Source of the DNA: Candidatus Staskawiczbacteria bacterium
GTDB lineage: Bacteria; Patescibacteriota; Minisyncoccia; Minisyncoccales; Staskawiczbacteraceae
Length of the DNA: 48,706 nt
Reading direction: 5' to 3'
Assembly: GCA_026395295.1 (NCBI GenBank)
Contig: JAPLYZ010000020.1
Coordinates: 1-48,706 of the forward strand
The notes beneath the pieces are model-generated. The model had not been told where the DNA came from, searched no databases, and saw only the letters and a list, made by a program, of their open reading frames with translations. Shown here in pieces: positions 5,774 to 32,637 of the stretch. Position numbers and translations under genes: made by a program. Position 1 is the first letter of the stretch, and each line of letters opens with the position of its first letter.

Positions 5774-6690
5774 TCACAGAAATTTATTAATTTTTTCATT
5801 TCGGCAAATCGGTCATCAGATCCTAAAATTACGTTGATCAAATAACCGTTATTTTTCGGACTATCAACCACTAAAAGCAAGCAACCCTTAGCTGCATCGG
5901 TGAAACCGGTCTTACTACAAATGGCTTCCGGCATCTCGCTTAAAAGTTGGTCGGTGTTTTCAACTTTCCCGAAATTTGGAACATAAAAATCCTTAACCTT
6001 GCTTATGTTGGCGATCTTAGGATATTCCCTTAAAATGTGTTCAGCAAGCTTTATTAAATCTCGCGCAGTAGAAACATTTCTGGAACTTAAACCTGTGGAG
6101 TCTGCAAAAAAAGTGTTGTCTAACCCCATATCTTTTGCTTTTTGGTTCATTAAACCGATAAATTTTTGCTCGCCAATTTTTTCCGATAACGCATAAGCTG
6201 ATTTATTAGAAGAGCCAACCAACATTATGTCTAGAAAACTTTCAACCGGCATTGTGTCTCCCAGCTTAACATCTTGCCTTACAGATTCCTGTGAGTCGGC
6301 AACTTCATTAACTGTAATTGTGTCTGATAAGTCGTAGTTGTCTAAAACAATAACCGCTGTCATCAGTTTGGTTAAACTGGCAATTGGCAGCCGAGCATCG
6401 CTATCTTTTTCAAAAATAATTTTTTTTTCTCCATAAGAATTGCTTTCTACAGAAATTGCCGCCTTTGCTCTTATCTCGGGAACAACGCCTTGTATTAGAA
6501 CAGTGCCTCCGGTTACATTTTCCAAATTAAAATCCCTGAAATTATCGGAAACACTTCCCAAAAACACCGTTTTGTTTTGGCTCTGGGAAAAATTATCAAA
6601 AACCCATTGCAAACCAAAAATCATGTATACAAAAAATCCTAAAAATACCAGCGACAATAACAAACCTTTGATTGCCCGGCTTAAATTCAT
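5770..6690 (-). CDS. dacA: D-alanyl-D-alanine carboxypeptidase (S11 penicillin-binding protein)
   Basis: A 306-residue protein with an N-terminal signal/anchor helix and an S11 peptidase domain. The three penicillin-binding motifs are present: SLTK (nucleophile Ser), SSN in VGSSNKSAYAL, and KTG in CSKTGFTDAAKG. Members trim the terminal D-Ala of peptidoglycan stem peptides at the outer membrane face. There is no C-terminal amphipathic anchor as in PBP5, so it is held by the N-terminal helix or released. It overlaps aspS upstream and mraY downstream by four bases each. Confidence 0.93.
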   Translation of the reverse strand: MNLSRAIKGLLLSLVFLGFFVYMIFGLQWVFDNFSQSQNKTVFLGSVSDNFRDFNLENVTGGTVLIQGVVPEIRAKAAISVESNSYGEKKIIFEKDSDARLPIASLTKLMTAVIVLDNYDLSDTITVNEVADSQESVRQDVKLGDTMPVESFLDIMLVGSSNKSAYALSEKIGEQKFIGLMNQKAKDMGLDNTFFADSTGLSSRNVSTARDLIKLAEHILREYPKIANISKVKDFYVPNFGKVENTDQLLSEMPEAICSKTGFTDAAKGCLLLVVDSPKNNGYLINVILGSDDRFAEMKKLINFCE

Positions 6691-8087
6691 TTTTTAGTCT
6701 TGCCTATGCTTATGTGTAATTCTTTTAGCTGTTTTTTATCAACTTCCGATGGAGCCTGCATCATAAAGTCCCGACCATCTCCTGTTTTTGGAAAAGCAAT
6801 GACTTCTCTGATGTTTGGTTCGTTTTGTAAAATAGTTACAATTCTATCAATGCCCGGAGCAATTCCACCGTGCGGAGGCGTGCCGAATTGAAAGGCCGTA
6901 AGCATATGCCCAAACTTTTCCCAAATTTCTTCTTTTTTATATCCCATAATTTCAAAGACCTTTTCAAGGATTTTCGGGTCGTGGCTTCTTATTCCCCCGC
7001 TTGCCAATTCCATGCCATTTAGAACAATATCGTACTGGTTGGCAACAATTTTTTCTATATTTTTTTTATTTAATAAATCTGGGATAAACTCTTGTTTTTG
7101 GGCTGAAAATGGATTATGCACGAATGTCCACTTTCCATCTTCTGTTTTTTCAAAAAATGGAAAATCTATTATCCAACAAAAAGCCAGAAGATCTTTATCA
7201 TTTTTGTCCTTTCTTAAATCCGGTTTATCGGAATTATATTTTTCCATTGCTTCTTTATATGGAATTCTGGGAAAAGGAATTTCCTGTATTTTTTTATTCG
7301 GGTATAAGGTTTCAATCATCTTAATAAACATTCTTTCCACCAATTCAAGAATGTCTTCTCTCTCCACAAAACTCATTTCTAGGTCAAGCTGAGTGTGCTC
7401 AAATTGACGATCTCCCCTTGAGTCTTCGTCTCTAAAGCATCTGGCAATTTGGAAATATTTTTCTAAACCGGCCGCCATTAAAAGTTGCTTATATTGCTGT
7501 GGGCTTTGAGGCAAGGCATAAAATTTTCCTGGTTGTAATCTTGAAGGAACTATAAAATCGCGGGAGCCTTCTGGCGTTGACTTTGTAAGCATGGGAGTTT
7601 CAATTTCCGCAAAGCCTTCTTTATCTAAAAAATCTCTAAAAAACTTTATGACTTTATGTCGCACAATAAGATTGTTTTTCAGTCTTTCTCTTCGTAAATC
7701 CAAATACCTGTATTTCATCCTCACCTCCTCGTTAATGTCATAGCCGTCGCCCTCAATGGTCAGTGGCAGGGTTTCTGACTCAGACAAAATCTTCAAGCTT
7801 TCCACCGAAAGTTCCACCTGACCTGTTTCAATTTTTGGGTTAATCATATTTTCCGGCCTTTTAACAATTTGTCCGACAATTTCCACAACCCATTCTGTTC
7901 TCAAATTTTGGGCCAGGTCATAGGCCTCTTTATTTGAGGGCACAAAAACAACCTGCAGAATTCCGCTGATGTCGCGCAGGTCAATAAACAAAATTTTTCC
8001 GTGAGCCCTCCTGGTGTTGACCCATCCGCAAACCCTGACCTTTTCTCCAATATGTTTTGCCGTGTCTTTTATTAAAAATCTTTGCAT
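6687..8087 (-). CDS. aspS: Aspartyl-tRNA synthetase lacking the GAD insert
   Basis: A 466-residue class II synthetase. An OB-fold anticodon-binding domain (GWVNTRRAHGKILFIDLRD) is followed by the catalytic core with motif 1 (FAEIETPMLTKSTPEGSRDF), motif 2 (FRDEDSRGDRQFEHTQLD) and motif 3 (GIAPGIDRIV). Bacterial AspRS is usually near 590 residues because of a GAD domain inside the core. Here motif 2 runs through EKYNSDKPDLR straight to FCWIIDFPFFE with only a short linker, so the insert is absent. Whether it charges tRNA-Asn as well cannot be told by eye. It lies 6 bases downstream of tyrS. Confidence 0.95.
   Translation of the reverse strand: MQRFLIKDTAKHIGEKVRVCGWVNTRRAHGKILFIDLRDISGILQVVFVPSNKEAYDLAQNLRTEWVVEIVGQIVKRPENMINPKIETGQVELSVESLKILSESETLPLTIEGDGYDINEEVRMKYRYLDLRRERLKNNLIVRHKVIKFFRDFLDKEGFAEIETPMLTKSTPEGSRDFIVPSRLQPGKFYALPQSPQQYKQLLMAAGLEKYFQIARCFRDEDSRGDRQFEHTQLDLEMSFVEREDILELVERMFIKMIETLYPNKKIQEIPFPRIPYKEAMEKYNSDKPDLRKDKNDKDLLAFCWIIDFPFFEKTEDGKWTFVHNPFSAQKQEFIPDLLNKKNIEKIVANQYDIVLNGMELASGGIRSHDPKILEKVFEIMGYKKEEIWEKFGHMLTAFQFGTPPHGGIAPGIDRIVTILQNEPNIREVIAFPKTGDGRDFMMQAPSEVDKKQLKELHISIGKTKK
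7657..7668 (+). repeat. TGTCGCACAATA dodecamer, copy 2 (inside aspS)
   Basis: Exact 12-base word, same orientation as the other four copies. It is read in the same protein frame as copy 1 (LIVRQ, LIVRH) but a different one from copy 3. Confidence 0.6.
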
Positions 8088-11660: not shown

Positions 11661-11831
11661 TTATTTTTTTGGCAAGTGTTTTTGGAGGCACTCATCGCAA
11701 ATGCCATGAGTTATTCCCGACTCGCCCTCAACTTCTTTTTCTCCTATTTCTTTTCTACACCAAGCGCAAACAATTTTCATAATCGCTTTTTTACCTTCTG
11801 GTTGCTCTTTCCTTGTTTCTGAATTTTCCAT
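11661..11831 (-). CDS. 56-aa zinc-ribbon-like small protein (below ORF-track cutoff)
   Basis: This frame is not in the track. It starts at ATG 11831 and ends at TAA 11661, seven bases before the murC start, so the two are probably co-transcribed. The sequence has a basic N-terminus, then CAWCRKEIG, a spacer and ICDECLQKH: two CxxC knuckles about 24 residues apart that could hold one zinc ion. I do not know a named family; similar short CxxC...CxxC proteins are common in bacteria. The context gives no function. Confidence 0.65.
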   Translation of the reverse strand: MENSETRKEQPEGKKAIMKIVCAWCRKEIGEKEVEGESGITHGICDECLQKHLPKK

Positions 11832-11912
11832 ATTTTTGTTATTGAATAATTTAAAACAAACCTACAATTCCATACATCCCTTGTTCGCGCGAATAAGGGT
11901 ATTATTTTGTAA

Positions 11913-12482
11913 TTACAATTTTAGATTGTGGGATTCTAAAATTGTGTAAACAGGCCCGCCTCTTTTCATTTCTGATTCCATTACTTCAATGGACTCCACA
12001 TCGAATGGCAAATCAAACATTCCGTTTATTTCCGGTCTTTCTTCTGGTTCAATCTGTTTCCATGCAAAAGAGCTAATACGAGCCAAAGTAATATGCGGAG
12101 CGAATGTCCTATTTTCCGGCACAAATTTAACTTTTTCTGTTAAAGAATTTTCCAGGTCTTCGCGAAGCAAAGACAGTTCTTCTGACTTCTCCCCTTCCGC
12201 CCAAACCATTTTTGGAGGCAACTTTTTCGGAGGACCATACAAAATCTGATTTACATTCAAAGAAAATGAACTGTGCCTTTCTGCAACTTCTTTTGCAACC
12301 AAACAAACTTCGCCGATTTCTTCATCGGTCAAAGTGCCCAAAAACTCCAAGGTAATATGCAAATTATCTTTTGGCGTCCATTTCGCAGGAAGTTCCGCAA
12401 ATTTTTCCGAATACGCAAACAACTCTCTCTTTACTTCCTCCGGCAAATTTATAGCAATAAAAACTCTGTGTCTCTTTTCCAT
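11913..12482 (-). CDS. thpR: RNA 2',3'-cyclic phosphodiesterase (2H family)
   Basis: A 189-residue 2H phosphoesterase. The paired HxTx motifs are NLHITLEF and PHITLARI, with the N-terminal RVFIAINLP strand typical of ThpR/LigT. It opens 2',3'-cyclic phosphate RNA ends; older names include 2'-5' RNA ligase. It stands alone, with the palindrome-bounded PaaX-like gene upstream. Family call is firm; physiological role is not established. Confidence 0.92.
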   Translation of the reverse strand: MEKRHRVFIAINLPEEVKRELFAYSEKFAELPAKWTPKDNLHITLEFLGTLTDEEIGEVCLVAKEVAERHSSFSLNVNQILYGPPKKLPPKMVWAEGEKSEELSLLREDLENSLTEKVKFVPENRTFAPHITLARISSFAWKQIEPEERPEINGMFDLPFDVESIEVMESEMKRGGPVYTILESHNLKL

Positions 12483-12550
12483 ATATGTTTTTCATTCTAT
12501 CAGAATAATCCGTGCTACTCAACCTCAAACAACCGAACTCGAACAACTGG

Positions 12551-12584
12551 GTTCATAATTTACGCGATAGCGTATTTTATGAAC
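12551..12584. repeat. Palindrome D, copy 1 (downstream of the PaaX/Cas2-like gene)
   Basis: A hairpin with 15-base arms (GTTCATAATTTACGC / GCGTATTTTATGAAC, 13 of 15 paired) and GATA loop. A diverged copy in opposite orientation lies at 13215-13250; the pair brackets the gene at 12600-13145. Confidence 0.85.
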
Positions 12585-12599
12585 TACCTTAAAATTTAA

Positions 12600-13145
12600 T
12601 TATTTTATTTTAAACAATTTTTTAAAATACGCTTCGTTGTCGACATATTCCAATACAGCAAAACGAACAAACTTATCAAGCTCAAAATAATTAACTAAAA
12701 GCTCTATTTCCCTTTTACATTCTACCGGAGTTATAAAAACGCTTTTCTGGAGTTCCCGAAAACCAATGAATTTTAGCTTGCGGCGCAAGGCATCTCTGCC
12801 TCTTTTATATTTTTCTGGGATATCAAAAGACACCATCCTCCATTTCCCGTCCCACTTTTCTTTTTTATTCTTAAGATTGTTTAAACGAAAGCCTAACGAT
12901 TTTAATTTCCCTTTTTTAGTTAAAGTCAATCTGACGAATCCATTTTTAGAAACCTCTTTATCAATAAGATCTAATTTATATAGATACTTAATCCCTTCTG
13001 TTAATTCCTGTTTGCTTATTTTATTCCATTCACGGGAAATAGCCCCTAAAACTCTTCTCTGTTGCCCCGGAGTAATACTATAACCAAAAGCAATGCCGGC
13101 CAACAAAAGCAGTAAAATTTTTTCTTTGGTTACATTCATATACAA
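12600..13145 (-). CDS. PaaX-like regulator / Cas2-fold protein
   Basis: A 181-residue protein. The N-terminal part (about 1-85) looks like a winged helix, with helices and a LTLTKKGK wing. The C-terminal part (WRMVSFDIPEKYKRGRDALRRKLKFIGFRELQKSVFITP) matches the Cas2/PaaX-C ferredoxin-like fold: beta strand ending in DIPE, an arginine-rich helix and the QKSVFI strand. There is no CRISPR array in the window, so CRISPR adaptation is unlikely. Inverted palindromes lie 16 bases after its stop and 70 bases before its start. They could be operators for autoregulation or ends of a mobile unit. Start ATG 13145 or 13139. Confidence 0.8.
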   Translation of the reverse strand: MYMNVTKEKILLLLLAGIAFGYSITPGQQRRVLGAISREWNKISKQELTEGIKYLYKLDLIDKEVSKNGFVRLTLTKKGKLKSLGFRLNNLKNKKEKWDGKWRMVSFDIPEKYKRGRDALRRKLKFIGFRELQKSVFITPVECKREIELLVNYFELDKFVRFAVLEYVDNEAYFKKLFKIK

Positions 13146-13214
13146 CTATTTAGCTTTTTATATTTTTTCATGACTTTTTTATATCTTAATTAACAGTATC
13201 ACAAAACACCAGCC

Positions 13215-13250
13215 AGTTCAATAATTACGCTATCGCGTGAAATATGAACT
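13215..13250. repeat. Palindrome D, copy 2 (upstream of the PaaX/Cas2-like gene)
   Basis: An imperfect hairpin with outer AGTTCA/TGAACT and inner ACGC/GCGT pairing around TATC. Its reverse complement matches copy 1 at 29 of 34 positions by my count. It is in inverted orientation relative to copy 1. Confidence 0.8.
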
Positions 13251-13303
13251 GCCTACTTATGGTTAAATACTATCACAATTTTTATCAAAAAAAACAAAAC
13301 CTG

Positions 13304-13334
13304 TAAAAAAAGAAGCCCGATTCATTCGAGCTTG
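13304..13334 (-). terminator. Terminator after the 68-aa ORF
   Basis: Minus-strand stem AAGCTCGA-ATGAA-TCGGGCTT (one mismatch) followed by a T-run; it lies 24 bases past the ORF stop. Confidence 0.8.
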
Positions 13335-13357
13335 ATAGTTGTCCATGACATATCAGG

Positions 13358-13564
13358 TCATTCACTCAACCAAGGAAGCAAATCAATCACTTCGACATCT
13401 TTGGATTCATGCCACTCGCCGTCGAAGTGCACGCGCTTACCAACTGGTCGGTTGTTTAATCCCTCAGGATCTTGATGGGCGAGACGTATTACTACATCCC
13501 TCGGTTCCCCACCTTTGACTTTGACCCTGAGCCTGCAGGTTTGTCGGCACTGAGTTATGTCCAT
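13358..13564 (-). CDS. Small hypothetical protein, start region possibly frameshifted
   Basis: A 68-residue frame of unknown family, richer in G+C than its neighbours, with CRQTC near the start and a central GGEPRDVVIRLAHQDPEG. A consensus promoter (TTGACA-17-TATTAT), a full ribosome site (AAAGGAGG) and a terminator frame the locus, so a gene is certainly expressed here. However, the ATG placed after that ribosome site (13588) is one base out of frame with this ORF and opens only about 42 codons. Two A5 runs between the two starts could hide a one-base indel; joining the frames would give about 78 residues (MNPQQNTKKLMDITQ...). Confidence 0.6.
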   Translation of the reverse strand: MDITQCRQTCRLRVKVKGGEPRDVVIRLAHQDPEGLNNRPVGKRVHFDGEWHESKDVEVIDLLPWLSE

Positions 13565-13640
13565 AAGCTTTTTGGTATTTTTGTTGAGGGTTCATCAAGG
13601 CCTCCTTTCGAGAGCCAACCCGTTTTGAAGAACTAAGTTT

Positions 13641-13669
13641 ATAATAGCATACAAAAAATACCCTGTCAA
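13641..13669 (-). promoter_or_regulatory. Consensus promoter for the small ORF at 13358
   Basis: On the minus strand, TTGACA (13669-13664) and TATTAT (13646-13641) are separated by 17 bases. A leader of about 45 bases carrying AAAGGAGG leads into the gene. Confidence 0.75.
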
Positions 13670-13694
13670 TGGTGGCACTTGCTTTTCTTTGTGA

Positions 13695-13700
13695 TACAAT
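13695..13700 (+). promoter_or_regulatory. -10 element giving a probably leaderless transcript of the HHH gene
   Basis: TGATACAAT is an extended -10-like sequence only six bases before the ATG at 13707, so transcription should start at or next to the start codon. No good -35 box is visible. It is divergent from the promoter at 13641-13669. Confidence 0.5.
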
Positions 13701-13706
13701 TTATTT

Positions 13707-14411
13707 ATGGCAAACAAGGAAATTGCGAAAATATTCAGAGATATGGCGGAGTTGCTCAATATTCGGGGCGATAGCGCGTTTCATATAAATGCTTACATAA
13801 AAGCCGCTGCGTATTTGGAGGCTTTGCAAACTGATGTTTCGGAGTTGTACGGTAACCCTCCTTCGCCAAAGGCTTCGGAAGGGCAAAAAAACAAATGGAA
13901 AGTTTTTTTGGTTCCAAAAATAATTGGTGATAAAAACGCCAAGAAAATTGAAGAGTATATAAAACACGGAAAAATCAAAGAGTTTGAAGAATTAGAAGAA
14001 GAAACAGCAATTAGGCAAGTCATCACACATTTTTTTATGTCAAAAGGGTTAAGCTTGCAAGAATTGAAAGAAAATGCTAAAAAGAGGAAAATAATATATT
14101 CCAGATTTACCAAACCAGCTAAGCAATTGCTGGAATTGGCTGGCTCAATTGAAAAGGCAAAATCTGCCATTGATACTGTAGCACAATGGGCAAGCACCAG
14201 AAAACTTGATTATGCCATTGAAACCGTTTTCAAAAAATGGCTGGAATTAGACAGATTAAAACCAAAAGAAATAGTTAAAAAACCATTTTACAAAGGCGAC
14301 CCCATGATTTGGTCCGAATCTAAAAAGAAATGGTTTGTAATTTCAAAATACGGCGAGTGGTTAGAATTCGCCGACAAACAATCCACTATTGAGTGGAGAA
14401 CTATAGAATAA
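13707..14411 (+). CDS. Protein with PolX-type helix-hairpin-helix N-terminal domain
   Basis: A 234-residue protein. The first about 95 residues match the 8-kDa HHH domain of family X DNA polymerases (NKEIAKIFRDMAELLNIRG, YIKAAAYLEAL, IGDKNAKKIEEYIKHGK). The nucleotidyltransferase palm is absent, so it is not a polymerase. Residues about 50-60 (NPPSPKASEGQ) come from an imperfect palindrome within the HHH hairpin region. The C-terminal half is unrecognised and ends in short Trp-rich strands. Possibly DNA-binding. It is followed 16 bases later by efp on the same strand. Confidence 0.75.
   Translation: MANKEIAKIFRDMAELLNIRGDSAFHINAYIKAAAYLEALQTDVSELYGNPPSPKASEGQKNKWKVFLVPKIIGDKNAKKIEEYIKHGKIKEFEELEEETAIRQVITHFFMSKGLSLQELKENAKKRKIIYSRFTKPAKQLLELAGSIEKAKSAIDTVAQWASTRKLDYAIETVFKKWLELDRLKPKEIVKKPFYKGDPMIWSESKKKWFVISKYGEWLEFADKQSTIEWRTIE
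13856..13883. repeat. Imperfect palindrome inside the HHH gene
   Basis: CCCTCCTTCGCC-AAA-GGCTTCGGAAGGG pairs at its ends and next to the loop. In frame it gives the low-complexity PPSPKASEG. It resembles dispersed short palindromes that I recall from Parcubacteria, which is an impression from memory, not a search. Confidence 0.55.
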
Positions 14412-14990: not shown

Positions 14991-17531
14991 TTAGGCTTTT
15001 GAGGGCTTCCAGTAATGGAAATATACAAGTTTGACTATTTCGCTTGTTATAAAATAGGCGCCATTGAGCAAAAACACAATTAGCAATGGGATAATGGGCG
15101 GAGCCACAAAATGGAACCAGTTTTGCCCAATTTTTAAAAAGGGCAAAGCAACAACAAATATGGCATCTATTGCTGTAAGGAATATCAGCCAAAAACTTGG
15201 CCTTTTTGCTTTGTAAAAAAGCCCTTTTGTTCTAATAATATAAATAAGCAGAATCTCGGTTAAAATGCTTTCTATGTACCACAAGGTTTGGATGACTCCG
15301 GGCGACTGTTTGTAAAAAATTGAAAAAAAAATAAAATCAAATACTGTGCTGACCAGAGCCAAAGAAATAATTAGCGGCAAAACATTGTGAAGTTGATACA
15401 TTTTTGGCTTTCTCAACTCTTCGACATCCACGGAATCTGTGGCAACCGAAATCAACGGAAAATCTGACAAGATGTTTCCCAGCAAAATTTGCACCGGCAA
15501 CATAGGCAAAAAATCTATAAATAAAGAAATAACAGCAATTGAATAAAAATTCCCAAAGTTGCTTGCCAAGGCGCACTTTATGTATTTATTTATGTTGGCG
15601 AAAATCATTCTGCCATCTTTAATTCCATTAACAATCACTCTGAGATCTTTTTGCAAAAGAACAACATCTGAAGCATCTCTGGCAATATCTGATGCCTCAA
15701 CAACGGCAATTCCAACGTCGGCTGTTTTCAACGCCGGAGCATCATTGACTCCCTCGCCCATAAAACCAACCTCGTGTTTCTTTTGCAGAGATTTTATAAT
15801 TTTGTGTTTCATATCAGGAGATACTCTGGCAAAAACAATTTTTTCTTCACATGCGTCGTCAAACTCTTCTTGTGACAGCTCCTCTAATTCCTGCCCGGAA
15901 ATTAATTCTTCGGGCAATTCTGTCAGCCCGGTCCGCTTAGCCACATATCCTGCAACCTCTTTTGAATCTCCGGTAATAATTTTTATTCTGACTCCCAATT
16001 TCTTAGACAAATTCATTGCTTCCTTGGCAGTGGTTTTTATTGGATCTTCAAAAACAAAATACCCTAAAAATGTCAGCCCTTTTTCGTCTTCAGCTTTGAT
16101 GTCAATGGTTTTTGAACCAATTTTCTTAAAAGCCAAAGCTAAAACTCTCTTGCCTTCCCTGCCCTCTTTTTCTATATCTTCCTTTGTTTCTTTCCTGTCA
16201 AAATTACCGCTCATTCTGGAACAATTATTCAAAATAGACTCCGGAGCTCCCTTAACAATCAGAAATTTCTCACCACGCAAGGATTGGATCAAAAATGCAG
16301 ACCTCATTCTGTAAGAATCAAACGGCAGTTCTGAAATTATTTTAAATTTTTTCGACTCTCTTAAAATGTCTTCCGGAGCTCTCTGTAATAAAGCAGAATC
16401 AAACGGGTTTAAAAAATGTTTATATTCCGCCACGCTTAGCGTGGCAATTGGGACGCTTAGCGTCCCGTACAAAAAACATTTTTTCTTATCGGAAGAAACC
16501 GTTTTTTCCAAAGATAATTTGTTCTGCGTTAATGTTCCTGTTTTGTCAGCGCACAAAACTTCTATATTCCCTAAGTCTTCAATGGCAGACAGGCGTTTCA
16601 CAACCACGTTTTGCTTTGCCATTTTTAAGCTTCCCTCAGACAAAGCAAATGTTACCACAACCGGCAAAGCTTCGGGCAAAATGCTGACTATTAAAGCAAC
16701 AGAAAATAAAAGTATTTCCAATCCCACATTCAGACCTTTAATCAAGAGATTGGCGATCAAAATTAAAGTTATTGTTACGACAACAATTCTTAGAATTAAT
16801 TTACAGAAATATAAAATGCTTTTTTCGTAAGCGCTCTCTTTTTTTATCTCGGAAACCGTTTTTATAATAGTGCCGAAAACCGTGTCTTTTCCCGTGGAGA
16901 CAGCAATCCCCGTTGCTTTGCCCGATATTACAGAAGAGCCTGAAAAAATAATATTTTTTGCCTTAAAAATTTCTTTTTCTTCTCGGGCTAACGGATCTAT
17001 AACCTTAGAAACGGGGTTAGACTCTCCGGTGAGAACTGACTCATCTGCTAAAAAGTTTTGGACGCTTGTTACCCTCAAATCGGCGCAAACCTTATCGCCC
17101 GCCTCCAGCATAACAATATCCCCCGGAACTAAAAACTTTTCGTCAATAATTTCCTGCCTTGAATCTCTTAATACTTTAACCTTTTGCGGAATAAATTCCC
17201 TTAGAAGCGCTACCGCCTTTTCAGCTCGATATTCTTGAAAAAATCCGACAACAACGTTGATAATAATGAAAGCCAAAACCGCCAGACTGTCAACCAATTG
17301 GCCGATAAAAAAAGATATTACAGCTGCGGCTAAAAGCAAATAACAAAACGGAGATTTAAACTGCCTTATAAAAATGCTTAACGCGTTTGTATTTTTGACC
17401 TTCACCTCGTTCGGGCCGAATTTGGTCAAAGCAAAATTCGCCTGCTTTTTTGTGAGCCCGCTTTCGGAAGTTTTTAACAATTCCAAAACTTCTTTGACGC
17501 TTATGCTTGTATATTGTGAAAAGCTATTCAT
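14991..17531 (-). CDS. Cation-transporting P-type ATPase, MgtA-like
   Basis: An 846-residue P-type ATPase. It has a cation-ATPase N-terminal domain, TGES actuator loop (LTGESNPVSK), transmembrane 4 PEALP, phosphorylation site CADKTGTLTQNK, nucleotide-domain KGAPE, and hinge GEGVNDAPALK. The sequence after PEALP (VVVKRLSAIEDLGNIEVL) and the C-terminal LLGNILSDFPLISVATDSVDVEELRKP resemble MgtA/type III Mg-ATPases more than SERCA. Ion specificity is therefore inferred. A double palindrome inserts TLSVPIATLSVAEYK at about residue 355 in the N domain. Its stop of the upstream antiporter gene overlaps by four bases, so the two may serve divalent-cation homeostasis. Confidence 0.9.
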   Translation of the reverse strand: MNSFSQYTSISVKEVLELLKTSESGLTKKQANFALTKFGPNEVKVKNTNALSIFIRQFKSPFCYLLLAAAVISFFIGQLVDSLAVLAFIIINVVVGFFQEYRAEKAVALLREFIPQKVKVLRDSRQEIIDEKFLVPGDIVMLEAGDKVCADLRVTSVQNFLADESVLTGESNPVSKVIDPLAREEKEIFKAKNIIFSGSSVISGKATGIAVSTGKDTVFGTIIKTVSEIKKESAYEKSILYFCKLILRIVVVTITLILIANLLIKGLNVGLEILLFSVALIVSILPEALPVVVTFALSEGSLKMAKQNVVVKRLSAIEDLGNIEVLCADKTGTLTQNKLSLEKTVSSDKKKCFLYGTLSVPIATLSVAEYKHFLNPFDSALLQRAPEDILRESKKFKIISELPFDSYRMRSAFLIQSLRGEKFLIVKGAPESILNNCSRMSGNFDRKETKEDIEKEGREGKRVLALAFKKIGSKTIDIKAEDEKGLTFLGYFVFEDPIKTTAKEAMNLSKKLGVRIKIITGDSKEVAGYVAKRTGLTELPEELISGQELEELSQEEFDDACEEKIVFARVSPDMKHKIIKSLQKKHEVGFMGEGVNDAPALKTADVGIAVVEASDIARDASDVVLLQKDLRVIVNGIKDGRMIFANINKYIKCALASNFGNFYSIAVISLFIDFLPMLPVQILLGNILSDFPLISVATDSVDVEELRKPKMYQLHNVLPLIISLALVSTVFDFIFFSIFYKQSPGVIQTLWYIESILTEILLIYIIRTKGLFYKAKRPSFWLIFLTAIDAIFVVALPFLKIGQNWFHFVAPPIIPLLIVFLLNGAYFITSEIVKLVYFHYWKPSKA
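16429..16466. repeat. Tandem palindromes inside the P-type ATPase gene
   Basis: Two perfect 17-base palindromes, GCCACGCT-T-AGCGTGGC and GGGACGCT-T-AGCGTCCC, share the core ACGCTTAGCGT and are separated by AATT. Both are read through in frame. Confidence 0.85.
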
Positions 17532-18490
17532 CTAAATGGATAAAATATTTCTACCAAAAGAAACAAGATATAAATTGAAAGAAAAATTAACCCTTCCATC
17601 TTGGTAATTTTTCTGCCGGTTCTGATGAAAATAAGGAAAATTAAAGAAGCCACTACGGTAAATATTCTGGTTGTTAAAAATGGAGACATATCTTTAATTT
17701 CAAACGGAGAAATTAAAGCGACTATTCCCAAAACCAATGTGGCGCAAACTATGACTGAACCCATTAGATCTCCTAAAATCATCCAATTCTCTCCGCGTCG
17801 TGCGGAAATGATGGAAAAATAGGTTTCCGGAAAACAATTTCCCAAACCAACGATTAAAATGCCCACCAGCGAAAGCGAAATTCCAAGCTTGATGGAAAAA
17901 AATTGGGCCGAGCTTATAACAAAATAAGAAGCCAAAAGCAACAGCGCCAACAAAGCGATAATTTTGAAAATGTTAACAACGAAACTTTTAAATCCTTTAA
18001 CCGGATTTTTTGGCCGGCCGGCATAAACTTTTTTGAATCTTTCCTCTTTGGAAAAAAGCCACCAAGTATATAAAACAAACGCTCCTAAAAGTATAAGCCC
18101 GTCTCCCCTGTCCAGTTTGCCGTCCCAAACCAAAATTATTGGCAAGATGGCAATTGCCGATGTAAAAATTGCCGACTTTTGCACCATTTCGTTTTCAGCC
18201 GGCAAAAATTTTGAGCCAAAAAGCACTGCTATTGCCATAACCAGAGTCAGGTCAACCAAATTGCCTCCAACAATGTCGCCAAAAGATATTTGGGGCATAT
18301 GGCGCAGGGCGGCGCTGACGTCAACAAATAGGTTTGGCAGAGAAGCGGCGAATGCCATTACAAAAAAAGCAGTAACAAACTCTCTCCAACGCAAATATTT
18401 GGCAATATCAACCAGTGTTGCCACCAGTTTTGAGCTTAGCCATGAAAGAATGAATATTGATGCGATGAAAATTGCGATTTCAGTTGCCAT
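17528..18490 (-). CDS. Sodium/calcium exchanger family (CaCA) antiporter
   Basis: A 320-residue membrane protein with about ten helices and the two inverted alpha-repeats of the CaCA superfamily: AASLPNLFVDVSAAL...DIVGGNLVDLTLV, and GLGNCFPETYFSIISARRGE...LGDLMGSVIVCATLV. The acidic residue usually found in the first repeat (SLPE) is Asn here, while the second keeps PET. Ion selectivity may therefore differ from classical Na/Ca exchangers. The start overlaps nothing upstream (four bases from the permease stop), and its stop overlaps the P-ATPase start (ATGA). Confidence 0.88.
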   Translation of the reverse strand: MATEIAIFIASIFILSWLSSKLVATLVDIAKYLRWREFVTAFFVMAFAASLPNLFVDVSAALRHMPQISFGDIVGGNLVDLTLVMAIAVLFGSKFLPAENEMVQKSAIFTSAIAILPIILVWDGKLDRGDGLILLGAFVLYTWWLFSKEERFKKVYAGRPKNPVKGFKSFVVNIFKIIALLALLLLASYFVISSAQFFSIKLGISLSLVGILIVGLGNCFPETYFSIISARRGENWMILGDLMGSVIVCATLVLGIVALISPFEIKDMSPFLTTRIFTVVASLIFLIFIRTGRKITKMEGLIFLSIYILFLLVEIFYPFR

Positions 18491-27295: not shown

Positions 27296-28564
27296 TTATT
27301 TAGCAGGGTTGTCCAATCTTCCCAGAAACAATATATTGCCGGTGGAGTTTTGCTGAATTACAAACAAGAAGGGGTGGTCTGCTCTGAATGTTTTGACAGT
27401 TCCCGGCATTGCACTATTCAGTGTCATTACCACTGCTGTTGCGGCCGCGGCTTCAGTCCCCTCTTCGTCCACTTGCACAAACGCCTGGTGGATAACATCG
27501 CCTATTTTCAAGTCTTTACTGCCTGTCATTCCGGAAAAATCAGCTGCGTCTGAAAAAGCCGAAGGCATACCCATATCAGACATATCATTTTTCATGAAAT
27601 ATTTTGTTTCAAGCTTAAATTTAGGAATATAAATGTCTATTCTGGTGTTTTGCAAGTCTGTTTTCAAACCGGAAAGTTTTTGGTCGCTTAAATATTTCTC
27701 TGCGTCTTTAACTGTTTTTCCAGCTTTTGGCAAAATTAAAGTCATAGACAAGTCATTCCCTTGGTATGGCAAATTCAAAACTTGAACGTCGTCATTCTCT
27801 GTATATTTAAACCGTGTATCTTCGCCCGTAAGACGCATCATATCTGCCTTTACAATTTTTCCTGAACTAACATTAAAGTCTTCCTGCCTTGTATCTGCTT
27901 TGGCGAACTGTTTCTGCCAATTACCTTTAAAATATATGGCATTTGTCAGCACCAAACGAGTATAGCTATCAACTGCGCCTTGCGGAATTAAGTCTTTTAT
28001 CTTGTTATTTGTTTTGTCCTCTATGTATTTGTTTATTGTTGTCCTGGAATTTTCTGTGTTATTAACGAAATCAAGATTGGTCAGCTTGCCTCCGTAATAT
28101 TTATCAACTGTTTGCAAATAAGCCGGCAAAAACGAGTAATCCTTTTGCGCCCATAAGGCATTGGCGGTATTCAGGCTGTAACTTTTACCCGCTTTGTTTA
28201 TCTCGTTATATATTTTTGCCGAAGACGATTCTAAAACTTTCACATCGGGCAAGTGAAAAACGCTGGCTATTTGGGAAGAGGTATCCCCTTTCGCGCCCTC
28301 ATACACCATAGACATAGCGCCAGAAACACTGTAGGGAGAAAAGAAAAAGTTTGAATCTCCGCTGTGCTTTGAATAAAAATCAACGGCGAACTGATTGTTT
28401 GCTTTAACAAGAGAGCTAACCCCTTCTGTTGTTGCCAATGAGTCGTCCAAGAAAACTGCCGGCGAAGGCGACGGAGCTTTTTTATAAATAAGATAAACAC
28501 CAATCGCTATTATGGCGACTACTAATATCGCTAATATTATAAACATTATAATTTTTTTTGTCAT
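27296..28564 (-). CDS. Membrane-anchored serpin (serine protease inhibitor)
   Basis: A 422-residue protein: N-terminal signal-anchor helix (about 3-27), a Pro/Ser linker, then a full serpin fold (NQFAVDFYSKHSGDSNFFFSPYSVSGAMSM; TRLVLTNAIYFKGNWQ; ADHPFLFVIQQNSTGNILFLGRL). The reactive-centre hinge EEGTEAAAATAVVM has the small residues needed for loop insertion, so it should be inhibitory. Aligned on that hinge, P1-P1' is Asn-Ser. Serpins trap proteases by a covalent acyl-enzyme. It likely protects the cell surface from host or community proteases. First gene of serpin-wHTH-mltG. Confidence 0.93.
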   Translation of the reverse strand: MTKKIIMFIILAILVVAIIAIGVYLIYKKAPSPSPAVFLDDSLATTEGVSSLVKANNQFAVDFYSKHSGDSNFFFSPYSVSGAMSMVYEGAKGDTSSQIASVFHLPDVKVLESSSAKIYNEINKAGKSYSLNTANALWAQKDYSFLPAYLQTVDKYYGGKLTNLDFVNNTENSRTTINKYIEDKTNNKIKDLIPQGAVDSYTRLVLTNAIYFKGNWQKQFAKADTRQEDFNVSSGKIVKADMMRLTGEDTRFKYTENDDVQVLNLPYQGNDLSMTLILPKAGKTVKDAEKYLSDQKLSGLKTDLQNTRIDIYIPKFKLETKYFMKNDMSDMGMPSAFSDAADFSGMTGSKDLKIGDVIHQAFVQVDEEGTEAAAATAVVMTLNSAMPGTVKTFRADHPFLFVIQQNSTGNILFLGRLDNPAK

Positions 28565-28691: not shown

Positions 28692-28739
28692 TAAAAAAAT
28701 GGCCGGGATAGCTCGACCTTAAAAGGTGAGCTCCCGGCC
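28692..28739 (-). terminator. Strong terminator of the radical SAM operon
   Basis: A long nested stem (GGCCGGGA...TCCCGGCC, GCTC...GAGC, ACCTT...AAGGT) followed on the minus strand by seven T residues. It lies 13 bases past the stop of the last gene. Confidence 0.92.
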
Positions 28740-28752
28740 CTGTTGTTGCCCG

Positions 28753-29406
28753 CTACTTGGCGGACTTTTTGTTGGTGCGACGCGCCTTGGGTTTCCGCTG
28801 CTTGATTGTCAGCGAAGTGACCTTTGCGCTGTCCATCACGGCTCGGCATTTCGACATAGGTTTCTCTTTCTGTCCCACAACGGTTGCAAGTATGTGACAT
28901 CGGTTAGGTCCGAAGGGGAACTTTGTGAGCTCCTCATAGGAAAGGTAAACCTTCAGGATAAGCATCATCAGCTTTGGATCTATGCTTTTCAGCAAAACCT
29001 TAACTTTTGATCTGAACGCCTGATTACCCTCCATGTCTTTGGCATACTGGCAATCTAAGTGGAGAACTAAGTGAACTTTATCATCTTTCCGTAAAAAACT
29101 CAATGGATACATCCTACACGCCAGCGGTCTGATTCTCCGTATGGTGCACCTCCTGTTCTTACAGCAAGGACAATCTGGTTTGAGCTTCTCGATATCGGTC
29201 TCGCCCTTTTTGAAAGGCGAAATAAGAAGGACTCCCTTGTTGATTTCCAAAATTGGAACCCCTACCCGGAAAAGCATAGAAGACTCTGCCGGGAGAAGCC
29301 AAATATATCCTTTACAATCGTCGTAGGCGCAATGTTCGCACGCATCGCTTATGTCGAGCAGAAGCTTGTCTAAAGCCAGGTAAAACTCTTGCAGTGTTTT
29401 TATCAT
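28753..29406 (-). CDS. YkgJ-like Cys-cluster protein
   Basis: About 217 residues. The middle carries CPCCKNRRCTIRRIRPLACRMYPLSF, the eight-residue-spaced Cys cluster of the YkgJ/DUF family thought to bind a metal or Fe-S centre. CEHC and CKGY lie nearer the start. The C-terminal 30 residues are Lys/Arg-rich. The track start (29433) would overlap the previous gene by 31 bases. The ATG at 29406 forms the usual ATGA overlap and has GGAGG at a workable distance, so I use it. Last gene of the operon with two radical SAM enzymes. Function unknown. Confidence 0.82.
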   Translation of the reverse strand: MIKTLQEFYLALDKLLLDISDACEHCAYDDCKGYIWLLPAESSMLFRVGVPILEINKGVLLISPFKKGETDIEKLKPDCPCCKNRRCTIRRIRPLACRMYPLSFLRKDDKVHLVLHLDCQYAKDMEGNQAFRSKVKVLLKSIDPKLMMLILKVYLSYEELTKFPFGPNRCHILATVVGQKEKPMSKCRAVMDSAKVTSLTIKQRKPKARRTNKKSAK

Positions 29407-30305
29407 AACCATCCACCTCCAATCATGCAGCAAGGACTATCTGACCCGAGACAAAAGGTCACCTTGTCTCCTTCATACACAACGTAGCAGCATGTTTCGT
29501 TCGGGATCACCCAACTACTAGACAAAGATGTTAGCTCTTCTACACACTGCTCTGAAAGTATGCTTGCCAGAAACCTCTTCGGTTTTTTCAAAGCAATCTC
29601 GGAGCATGGATAGACCAGCCCGTCGAAGCTGAGATAAACCGTTGAGAGATTGGGGTTGCACAGCCTGTTCTGTCTTTTTGTCATTCTTTCCGCAATCTTT
29701 CTCAGCCTTACTTTTTGATCCCTATCTAAGGCAAGCCAGGATTTATGAGCGAGGGCTCTGCCGAGGATGGCTATCTCCGAAATGTGTACATGATAAGCGC
29801 CAAGAGCCATAGCCTTCTTGATTATGTCTTCTACCTCATATATGTTCTGCGCGGAAACCGTGATGTGCACGGAAACCGGCAAAACAGACGAAAAAGCAGA
29901 AATGGCCCTGCATGCCTTGTTAAAGCTACCAGCTCCGCGGACTGCGTCATGTGTCTCCTCCTTGACTCCGTCGAGACTAACCCCGACCAAATCCAGTAGC
30001 GATGACAGCTTCAAAACAAGACCCCTGTTTGATGTAAATCCGTTGGTAATTAGTCTTAGCCCCATCCCTTTGGCCTTACAGGCCTCGAGGATAGCGACTA
30101 TGTCTTTCCTCGCCAACGGCTCTCCGCCGGTAAACATAACCTTTTCACACCCGAGCCTTGCTATTCGGTCTACAACCGTTAATGCTTCATGAGTTGAGAG
30201 TTCGTTTTTTTCTGGCGAACCGCAATCTGTGATACAGTGGTTGCATCGCAAATTACAAACCCTGGTTATTTCCCAATGCCACTCTTCAAAGTGTTTTGTT
30301 GTCAT
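29403..30305 (-). CDS. Radical SAM protein with short Cys-rich C-terminus
   Basis: A 300-residue radical SAM enzyme. The 4Fe-4S motif is CNLRCNHC near residue 17, followed by MFTGGEPLARKD (GGEP), RLITNGF and GVSLDGVKEETHD. The end carries several Cys (YPCSEIAL, NETCCYVVY, FCLGSDSPCCM) resembling a shortened SPASM/twitch region for an extra cluster. Relatives mature peptides (RiPPs) or cofactors. A clear ribosome site (AGGAG) precedes the ATG, and it overlaps the 433-aa radical SAM stop by four bases. Confidence 0.9.
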   Translation of the reverse strand: MTTKHFEEWHWEITRVCNLRCNHCITDCGSPEKNELSTHEALTVVDRIARLGCEKVMFTGGEPLARKDIVAILEACKAKGMGLRLITNGFTSNRGLVLKLSSLLDLVGVSLDGVKEETHDAVRGAGSFNKACRAISAFSSVLPVSVHITVSAQNIYEVEDIIKKAMALGAYHVHISEIAILGRALAHKSWLALDRDQKVRLRKIAERMTKRQNRLCNPNLSTVYLSFDGLVYPCSEIALKKPKRFLASILSEQCVEELTSLSSSWVIPNETCCYVVYEGDKVTFCLGSDSPCCMIGGGWL

Positions 30306-31603
30306 AATTTCTCTCCTATCATGTGCGCAGCGCCTACGCTGACAAGTTTGCTGCAGAACTTTCTAACTTCCACTGCGTCAGCTTTTGCAGAAAAATCAGA
30401 GACCAAGTCTGCTTCAGAAAAAATACCCAGATACAAAGCCCTTCGAACTACCGCTAGGGATAGGCCGCTGACCTCTATTGTCTGGTAGCGCGTAATGAGA
30501 TATTTTTCCTGGTGAAACTCGTTGAGCTTAGCGAGGGGATCCATTTTAATCCTGCGGTATTCCCTTGGGAAAACCTCCTTCACGCAACCGCGCTTCGGAA
30601 GTGTCTCCACTTTATGCAGAGGCTCCGCCCTATTTCTTACCGCGTAATCAACACAATATTTGTCAGAACAGCTACAATCTACTTTACAACCACAGAGACA
30701 ATCGTGAAGAACCGGGCAGGATTTGCAAGGTTCAGTCACCCACGACAAATCTCTGAAGTCGCGAATTTTATCCGATTTCCAGATCTCTTCTATGGGCTGG
30801 GTCAAAACGTTACCGTAAATAACCTGTGACTGATTACAAATTCTCACACTGCCATCTGGATCTATGGCAGCAAAAGTTATGCCTACCCCGCAGTTAGCCG
30901 ACATATTTTCTTGGACCAGCCGTTCGTCAAGGCAGTAAGGTATAGCGGTGCCAAAACCCATGGGAATGTTAAGCTCATCCCTAGCGCGAATCATTTGCCC
31001 GAGAGCTATTTTAAACTGTTCTATTGTGGGCTTCAGTTGTTCGGCATTTGCGCTGCCTATACCACCATCCTCGAACCGGTCCACAAAAACGCTTTCCATG
31101 CCAAGTTCTTTGGCGAGGCGAGCGATATTGTAGATTTGGTCAAAGTTCCAGGCGGTGAGCACGGGGATACACCTAACGTCGAATCCAGCTGCAACGTAGT
31201 ACTTAATGCTTGCAACCGTATCCGCATAGCGCCCAGGCGTCTCGCTGTGAATGTTGTGAGTTTTCTCGTCGCCGTGAATGGGGACCCCAATACAGGCAAG
31301 CTTGTCTGACAACCCCTCAAGAGTGATTATTCCATTGGTGACCACGGTCACCGAGGAACGAGCTGAAAGAAGATTGATGTATTCGTTCAACTGGGGCACT
31401 CCTAAAAGCGAAGGCTCTCCACCGATTAGGTAGACGTGAGGAACCCATGATCCGTAAACAGACGCCACAATCTTGTCGATGGTTTCCTTCCTAAAAGGCA
31501 ACCCGCGCTTAGGATTGTAGCAAAATTTACATCTCTTATTGCAAGCGTAAGTCGTCTCGATATGAACGAGGTGAGGAACGCTGGGAATTTTTAAAGCCTT
31601 CAT
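30302..31603 (-). CDS. Radical SAM/SPASM protein with possible PqqD-like C-terminal domain
   Basis: A 433-residue protein. The radical SAM motif is CNKRCKFC (about residue 20), with YLIGGEPSLLG and TVVTNGI. A full SPASM region follows: CGVGITFAAIDPDGSVRICNQS, then PCKSCPVLHDCLCGCKVDCSCSDKYC. The last about 75 residues (ITRYQTIEVSGLSLAVVRRALYLG...VRKFCSKLVSVGAA) resemble a PqqD-type RiPP-recognition wHTH; this is inference by pattern. Ribosome site GGGAGG is strong. It overlaps RNHCP upstream and the second radical SAM downstream by four bases each. Confidence 0.9.
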   Translation of the reverse strand: MKALKIPSVPHLVHIETTYACNKRCKFCYNPKRGLPFRKETIDKIVASVYGSWVPHVYLIGGEPSLLGVPQLNEYINLLSARSSVTVVTNGIITLEGLSDKLACIGVPIHGDEKTHNIHSETPGRYADTVASIKYYVAAGFDVRCIPVLTAWNFDQIYNIARLAKELGMESVFVDRFEDGGIGSANAEQLKPTIEQFKIALGQMIRARDELNIPMGFGTAIPYCLDERLVQENMSANCGVGITFAAIDPDGSVRICNQSQVIYGNVLTQPIEEIWKSDKIRDFRDLSWVTEPCKSCPVLHDCLCGCKVDCSCSDKYCVDYAVRNRAEPLHKVETLPKRGCVKEVFPREYRRIKMDPLAKLNEFHQEKYLITRYQTIEVSGLSLAVVRRALYLGIFSEADLVSDFSAKADAVEVRKFCSKLVSVGAAHMIGEKL

Positions 31604-31926
31604 GGTCCCACCTCCCGTGCCTGCCTTGCAAAAGCCGAAGCTACGGCCATGACGGCATCAATAGAGTCGTTTTTAGCTACACGGTTTCTCTTTTCCGTCC
31701 CACATTTTGTGCAACGGTGGACAATAATGTAGCCACCCTTTTTCTGTTCGATAGAAATCGGCTCCATGAGCCCTTTGCAGTTGTGCATCCTGTCGCCAGG
31801 ATTTACGTCAACATGTTTACTGTACAGACACGCCGAGCAATGATTGGTGTATCCATCGCCGACAACTTCTGTACCACAATTTTCACAACGGAAGTTCTCT
31901 CTTCTGCGAATAAATCTTAAGGACAT
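31600..31926 (-). CDS. RNHCP-domain protein
   Basis: A 108-residue zinc-finger-type protein. It starts with RRRENFRCENCGTEV and continues with GYTNHCSACLYSKHVD, NPGDR, CKGLMEPI and HRCTKCG: the conserved RNHCP-domain layout, with four CxxC/HC pairs likely holding two zinc ions. Function of the family is not established; nucleic-acid binding is often assumed. First gene of the radical SAM operon, with AGGAG seven bases before the ATG and a TTGACA promoter. Confidence 0.9.
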   Translation of the reverse strand: MSLRFIRRRENFRCENCGTEVVGDGYTNHCSACLYSKHVDVNPGDRMHNCKGLMEPISIEQKKGGYIIVHRCTKCGTEKRNRVAKNDSIDAVMAVASAFARQAREVGP

Positions 31927-31977
31927 TTTGTCGCTCCTTTCTTGTAGTTTTAAATTTCAATGTGCTGAATTACCTAT

Positions 31978-32005
31978 ACATTACTATAAAATGCCAATTT
32001 GTCAA
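31978..32005 (-). promoter_or_regulatory. Promoter of the RNHCP/radical SAM operon
   Basis: On the minus strand TTGACA (32005-32000) and TAATGT (31983-31978) are separated by 16 bases. A leader of about 45 bases follows. Confidence 0.6.
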
Positions 32006-32031
32006 ACAAAAACCCGAGAGGCTATCTCGGG
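32006..32031 (-). terminator. Terminator after the GNAT gene
   Basis: Minus-strand stem CCCGAGA-TAGCC-TCTCGGG followed by five T residues; it abuts the promoter of the radical SAM operon. Confidence 0.88.
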
Positions 32032-32566: not shown

Positions 32567-32637
32567 CAGGGGCGCTGGGAATCGAACCCAGATCGTTCGT
32601 TTTGGAGACGAACATTCTACCGTTGAACTACACCCCT
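32567..32637 (-). tRNA. tRNA-Trp (anticodon CCA)
   Basis: Folded by eye: acceptor AGGGGTG/CGCCCCT, anticodon stem TTCGT/ACGAA with loop CTCCAAA giving CCA, T arm CTGGG-TTCGATT-CCCAG, discriminator G, no encoded CCA. The CCA anticodon reads UGG, consistent with TGA remaining a stop codon. Confidence 0.94.

Follow-up and report, generated by a model that had tools for sequence, protein, structure and literature searches.

The window analyzed here is a 48.7-kb stretch (48,706 nucleotides) of the 0.9-Mb genome of a Candidatus Staskawiczbacteria bacterium; the relatives that searches returned for it belong to the Patescibacteria (Nealsonbacteria, Sungbacteria and others). It carries an operon of four genes encoding an RNHCP-domain protein, a radical S-adenosylmethionine (SAM) enzyme with a SPASM domain (P0002), a second radical SAM enzyme (rSAM2, P0003) and a YkgJ-like cysteine-rich protein. 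This operon is probably an undescribed, horizontally acquired cassette for the modification of a ribosomally synthesized and post-translationally modified peptide (RiPP), in which a short peptide is docked by a RiPP recognition element (RRE) and modified by both radical SAM enzymes.

The precursor-like peptide

An earlier reading of the window, made from the sequence alone (the sequence-only reading), had seen no obvious precursor in the operon. A candidate is nevertheless present as the last 34 residues (184-217) of the YkgJ-like open reading frame (ORF), with no stop codon between, and it was missed because of this fusion, which in the present genome makes it the tail of the last gene. At the homologous loci it is a peptide of 25-56 amino acids (aa) with the pattern MSKC(K)AV(L)D(S/G)xK(I/V)TxIxVKxK and a variable tail. 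It adjoins every checkable cassette, i.e. 17 aligned cassettes and those of genomes G696 and G077. Its gene lies directly after YkgJ, before the SPASM gene in two archaea, and divergently upstream in G696, where the peptide is 25 residues long. A leave-one-out profile detects the peptide in every locus (E 7e-8 to 3e-17), while 11 control loci with solo RNHCP genes gave E >= 0.08. The same profile recovered copies in two genomes outside its build set, G077 (E 2e-12), where the peptide follows a partial YkgJ gene at a contig end, and G696 (5.5e-9). Within the order of the host it occurs in 5 of 243 genomes, exactly those with cassette genes (the fifth being G077). The peptide has no match in Pfam, NCBIfam and PDB.

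Residues S2, K3, C4 and D9 are invariant in 18 peptide sequences, and A6, V7 and K12 are each changed once. For codons 2-9 the proportions of synonymous (pS) and nonsynonymous (pN) differences are 0.92 and 0.08 (pN/pS 0.08), and for codons 20-25 pN is 0.57; judged from these codon comparisons, the conserved segment is under strong purifying selection at the protein level. This segment is beta-prone and follows a beta-hairpin pattern. The tails are ~6 to 37 residues long, and their charge varies between very basic and acidic. The tail was considered as the RiPP core and rejected, given that it can be as short as ~6 residues and has no common modifiable residue. An N-terminal X-X-Cys metal site (mature Ser-Lys-Cys) is disfavored because the window peptide sits inside a fusion.

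Every other locus read has a separate gene for the peptide, and most of these free genes are preceded by a strong Shine-Dalgarno sequence (AAAGGAGGTGA-like), which is lacking in the window. A sequencing or assembly error could be behind the YkgJ-peptide fusion. In genome G104 (locus L020) the cassette is flanked by perfect 486-bp inverted repeats (6478-6963 and 11742-12227), each containing an identical peptide gene, and a 513-aa serine recombinase-like ORF lies just outside them (12549-14090). The 4.8-kb segment between the repeats could be invertible or mobile.

The SPASM enzyme and its recognition element

Both radical SAM enzymes named by the sequence-only reading, one with a full SPASM domain, were confirmed by domain matches (Table 1). 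P0002 contains the radical SAM motif CX3CX2C (C21, C25, C28) and a complete seven-cysteine SPASM region (C238..G251X4C256, CX2CX5CX3C at 293-306, and C317), which scores E 1.4e-11 against PF13186 and 33.4 bits against TIGR04085 (27-bit cut-off). In the alignment, both sets of cysteine columns are conserved across 15 relatives. One SPASM clade (L020, L027, L028, L029, L031, L032) has a conserved N-terminal extension of 40-45 aa, DWSPVATVxCxYxSxGRxEDGKYVxHD, with a near-invariant Cys.

The suggestion of a PqqD-type RRE at the C-terminus held when its structure was modeled. The AlphaFold2 (AF2) prediction for the last 91 residues, made with 14 relatives, has a predicted local distance difference test (pLDDT) score of 90.6 and places strands before helices, as in PqqD. 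Its best Foldseek matches in PDB are mostly RREs or RRE-bearing enzymes: TruD, the PbtF RRE with peptide, McbBCD and TigE, followed by lasso B1 proteins with leader, PqqD (5sxy), CteB and MccB. The assignment was made because these matches agree with one another and have probabilities near 1. The domain also contains an invariant L.T.YQT motif. According to this model, the C-terminal domain of P0002 is an RRE.

Distribution, gene order and fusions

Orthologous cassettes were found in ~18 genomes: those of Patescibacteria and of two DPANN archaea, together with a single binned contig of Caldithrix. The P0002 orthologues are 49-61% identical over the whole protein by alignment. In the order, 4 of 247 genomes have one; the counts for overlapping samples of the class and the phylum are 5 of 384 and 3 of 380. 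At the strict threshold, the 11 other members of the genus all lack an orthologue. P0002 alone gave no match in a first scan of genome contigs. With the four-sequence alignment A1, a pattern scan covering 84,980 species genomes added loci in Magasanikbacteria, Sungbacteria, Saccharimonas, other Patescibacteria, a Nanoarchaeon, a Pacearchaeon and Caldithrix. The Caldithrix locus is on one 6-kb bin contig, possibly a misbinned one. Ribosomal-protein and SecY genes of archaeal appearance lie on the Pacearchaeal contig, and bacterial ribosomal genes adjoin the G696 locus (identities by inspection in both cases); these neighbors indicate that both host assignments are sound.

The tree mixes archaeal and bacterial copies, which is consistent with horizontal spread of the cassette. 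Support for the fork uniting both archaea with two bacterial rows is 92/91, below the starred level that several other forks reach. No relative of P0002 was found in the viral, phage and plasmid collections under the limits used, and a role of the cassette as phage or plasmid cargo is unsupported.

Nearly all loci keep the order RNHCP, SPASM, rSAM2, YkgJ; in L027 and L031 a separate rSAM2 was not shown by the ORF search. Neighboring components are fused in several genomes: RNHCP with SPASM in L018, SPASM with rSAM2 in L073, rSAM2 with YkgJ in L020, L026, L028, L029 and L032, and YkgJ with the peptide in the window. From these chained fusions, which link all five parts, we infer that the components may form one physical complex.

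Optional neighbors of the cassette are a B12-binding radical SAM protein (3 loci), a methyltransferase (4), an Amidohydro_2 amidohydrolase (5), a pyridoxal phosphate (PLP) aminotransferase-like protein (2) and a third radical SAM protein. The first four are of the tailoring type and were counted in favor of a RiPP system. In two distant genomes (L019:1966-3138 and L073:9517-10689), the PLP aminotransferase-like gene precedes YkgJ within the cassette. A small Cys-rich protein (FLEIKCESCSAFIALYQKDGPGPLKRMYID-like) is encoded twice in G002, flanking a recombinase-like region (L062:9224-9556 and 17307-17639), and again beside the L030 cassette (L030:7267-7641).

rSAM2, the YkgJ-like protein and RNHCP

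In rSAM2 the CX3CX2C motif is formed by C17, C21 and C24, and four further cysteines (C216, C234, C272, C292) lie towards the C-terminus. All seven are kept in 15 of 15 relatives, a pattern in which the four extra residues would fit one auxiliary cluster. A viperin (pVip)-like defense role was considered and rejected: P0003 matches the radical SAM core alone (residues 11-127) and scores 71 bits against NF038283, vs a cut-off of 180.

The YkgJ-like protein of the window falls below the Pfam threshold; its orthologue P0007 matches the CxxCxxCC family PF03692 with 28.7 bits (threshold 23), and the Cys pattern is conserved across 17 relatives. The repeated fusion of YkgJ to rSAM2 suggests that YkgJ may serve that enzyme as an auxiliary Fe-S or Zn subunit.

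RNHCP matches PF12647 with E 2.9e-29 (101 bits, 24-bit cut-off), and Cys14, 17, 30, 33, 50, 72 and 75 together with His29 and 38 are invariant in 25 relatives. Its AF2 model is of moderate confidence (pLDDT 78), and the fold search gave just weak RPB9-like zinc-ribbon matches, none of them convincing. RNHCP proteins over the cut-off occur in 24 of 243 genomes of the order, usually solo and near housekeeping genes, and both archaeal genomes that carry the cassette lack them; RNHCP is therefore probably a peripheral zinc-ribbon partner. The view of the four genes as one functional unit is upheld by the conserved synteny in the neighborhood survey of ~18 genomes and by the chained fusions, but their equal status is not, given the solo occurrence of RNHCP and its absence from the archaea. 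The scattered solo genes (L061-L072), found in ~10% of genomes of the order, mostly have no common neighbors, which points to a general RNHCP role separate from the cassette. A decaying cassette in G102 (L066:7117-7818) consists of RNHCP followed by a truncated SPASM remnant of 110 aa, with no peptide.

Organization and composition of the operon

Features of the operon are collected in Table 1. Three ATGA overlaps join the four genes, with Shine-Dalgarno sequences at the junctions, and a strong terminator follows, as the sequence-only reading had proposed. The promoter that it had also placed there was not recovered: a consensus scan upstream of 31926 found no sigma-70-like promoter, the lone TTGACA being poorly spaced from any -10. 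A second terminator-like hairpin lies upstream of the operon (32013-32031). An Rfam search showed no riboswitch near it.

Table 1. Features of the operon and their positions in the window
Feature	Position	Strand	Basis
RNHCP-domain protein, 108 aa, Cys-rich, double zinc-ribbon-like (CxxC, HCxxC, CxxC)	31600-31926	-	PF12647
Radical SAM/SPASM maturase (P0002), 433 aa	30302-31603	-	Radical_SAM and SPASM matches
Predicted PqqD-like RRE, the last 91 residues of the SPASM protein	30305-30577	-	AF2 and Foldseek
Second radical SAM enzyme (rSAM2, P0003), 300 aa	29403-30305	-	PF04055, E 7e-26
YkgJ-like ORF, whole, including the fused peptide	28753-29406	-	
YkgJ/CxxCxxCC-type Cys-cluster domain, ~183 aa	28858-29406	-	Match of orthologue P0007 to PF03692; conserved Cys
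Precursor-like peptide MSKCRAVMDSAKVTSLTIKQRKPKARRTNKKSAK, an in-frame fusion that ends the YkgJ ORF	28753-28857	-	Leave-one-out profile, E 2e-10 (next best 0.68)
Intrinsic terminator: long GC-rich hairpin (GGCCGGGAGCTCACC..GGTCGAGCTATCCCGGCC), then ATTTTTTTA (T-run)	28701-28739	-	

The GC content of the operon is 47.4%, vs 36.8% for the remaining window, and GC at third codon positions (GC3) is 0.48-0.56 in its genes vs mostly 0.25-0.40 in the others. These differences in composition point to recent acquisition. A tRNA gene is located ~640 bases upstream of the GC-rich operon (32567-32637), and tRNA genes are also close to the L020 cassette; such surroundings are a possible integration neighborhood. 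On the other side, the gene adjoining the operon (27296-28564) encodes a serpin-like protein that has a membrane segment at its N-terminus.

Proposed mechanism and alternative explanations

The cassette, the peptide and its selection, the co-occurrence and the fusions were all read from sequence; for binding and chemistry we infer the following steps. The conserved first 19 residues of the substrate (SKCxAVLDxxKxTxIxVK) would serve as both docking and modification site, the tail being dispensable. The RRE of the SPASM enzyme would bind the beta-prone segment, and the SPASM enzyme and rSAM2, the latter paired with YkgJ, would install a radical modification, with the Fe-S or Zn cluster protein YkgJ acting as an auxiliary or electron-transfer subunit. 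That the peptide as such is modified seems likely. The modification would most likely fall on the invariant Cys4, and its likeliest partner in a PapB-like thioether would be Asp9. This Cys-X4-Asp linkage is proposed because both residues are invariant and PapB accepts Cys-Xn-Asp with n = 0-6 (PMC9413430); it is a guess, and an unlikely one. Candidate uses of the product are a secreted peptide, a metal-binding peptide or a retained cofactor.

Several observations weigh against this RiPP interpretation. The Cys4-Asp9 chemistry is argued from conservation alone, the layout of a conserved start and a low-complexity tail differs from the usual leader and core, and the window peptide is tethered to YkgJ. 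The Foldseek E-values of the RRE (5e-3 to 0.1) are weak and speak at the level of the fold only, in spite of the high probabilities. No protease or exporter/transporter recurs beside the cassette in 18 loci, and these functions could be encoded elsewhere. Genes for leader removal and export are common, not universal, in RiPP clusters, and secreted RiPPs without an adjoining protease or exporter are unusual.

The missing protease and exporter would also suit a modified hairpin that is retained as a tethered redox or metal group (on YkgJ in the window) and serves the complex or a partner enzyme. The fusion to YkgJ agrees with this, as do tails that vary in length and charge beside an invariant N-terminal segment. 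We regard it as unlikely, however, since every other locus read gives the peptide its own gene, usually with a strong ribosome site, a conserved partner oxidoreductase was not found adjoining the cassette, and the single fusion may be a recent accident or an assembly error. Assignment to a new class of peptide-derived cofactors or metallopeptides, common to reduced bacteria and archaea, in which two radical SAM enzymes and a Cys-cluster protein would crosslink the invariant SKCxAVLD hairpin into a redox or metal-binding group and the product could work while attached to its carrier (the YkgJ fusion), appears distinctly unlikely.

The peptide might instead be a subunit or metallochaperone that, together with the RRE, assembles a complex whose radical SAM enzymes modify another molecule (rRNA, tRNA, a protein or a small molecule). 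In principle an RRE could dock a peptide that is not a substrate, RNHCP and YkgJ resemble metal or Fe-S proteins, and P0002 has similar NCBIfam scores for peptide maturases and for haem-pathway enzymes (NirJ2, AhbD). Yet an RRE, a SPASM enzyme and a tiny peptide with an invariant Cys are the standard RiPP layout, and a patchy (4 of 247 genomes in the order), horizontally spread cassette is unlike a housekeeping modification, so this explanation is quite improbable. A chance association, in which the radical SAM pair and the Cys-rich genes would be unrelated and have no common function, is extremely improbable. The frequency of single RNHCP homologues near housekeeping genes (24 of 243 genomes) would accord with it, but not the same order in ~18 genomes from several phylum-level groups and two domains, nor the overlapping stops and starts and the four different fusions that join all parts. 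It is refuted for SPASM, rSAM2, YkgJ and the peptide; RNHCP alone could be a hanger-on.

Patescibacteria and DPANN archaea have lost most biosynthesis. Under the preferred RiPP interpretation, some of them would nonetheless keep and exchange a five-part radical SAM peptide cassette, an RRE-guided system present in both reduced archaea and bacteria. The peptide, with as few as 25 residues, would offer a small, precise and testable substrate for two unstudied radical SAM enzymes, and the cassette a first functional context for the RNHCP and YkgJ Cys-rich domains. Should the product mediate interaction with a host or competitor, or prove to be a new cofactor, it would raise a question on ultrasmall microbes for which there have been few handles so far.

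Comparison with known systems

The pyrroloquinoline quinone (PQQ) system (PqqA/PqqD/PqqE) likewise combines a SPASM enzyme, a PqqD-type RRE and a tiny ribosomal precursor, and the PDB entry that P0002 matches best in sequence is PqqE (6c8v, E 8e-11). However, the cassette peptide is unlike PqqA: it has no Glu/Tyr pair, and its conserved segment contains no Tyr. In the cassette the RRE forms the C-terminus of the SPASM enzyme, which is accompanied by a second radical SAM enzyme and YkgJ; PqqB- or PqqC-like genes were not seen, and P0002 reaches 66 bits vs the 381-bit cut-off of the PqqE family TIGR02109.

PapB, the ranthipeptide maturase of freyrasin, is a SPASM enzyme acting on Cys and Asp, and the cassette peptide has an invariant Cys-X4-Asp; freyrasin, in contrast, has six Cys-X3-Asp motifs vs this single one. 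P0002 scores 36 bits vs the 340-bit cut-off of rSAM_PapB (NF047865), and the cassette has two radical SAM enzymes. The multi-radical-SAM cassettes defined in NCBIfam (His-Xaa-Ser, SynChlorMet, GeoRSP) resemble it in that their radical SAM/SPASM proteins are assumed to act on small ribosomal peptides. Some are among the nearest bit scores of P0002, which stays far below all their cut-offs, and YkgJ and RNHCP are not known to be part of these systems.

The graspetide clusters of the Candidate Phyla Radiation (CPR) are likewise RiPP-like and come from the same reduced, probably epibiotic bacteria, some of them with SPASM enzymes and methyltransferases; they are defined by an ATP-grasp ligase (PMC8939145), and no such ligase was seen in the cassette.

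The sequence-only reading knew no described pathway with this gene set, and the searches agree: P0002 is far below every NCBIfam equivalog cut-off, none is evidently reached by its 14 orthologues (best E-values similarly modest), and no description of the cassette was found in the open-access literature searched, although subscription papers and unannotated mining lists could contain one. We class the cassette as a radical SAM peptide system guided by an RRE, in which both the precursor family and the set of partners are new.

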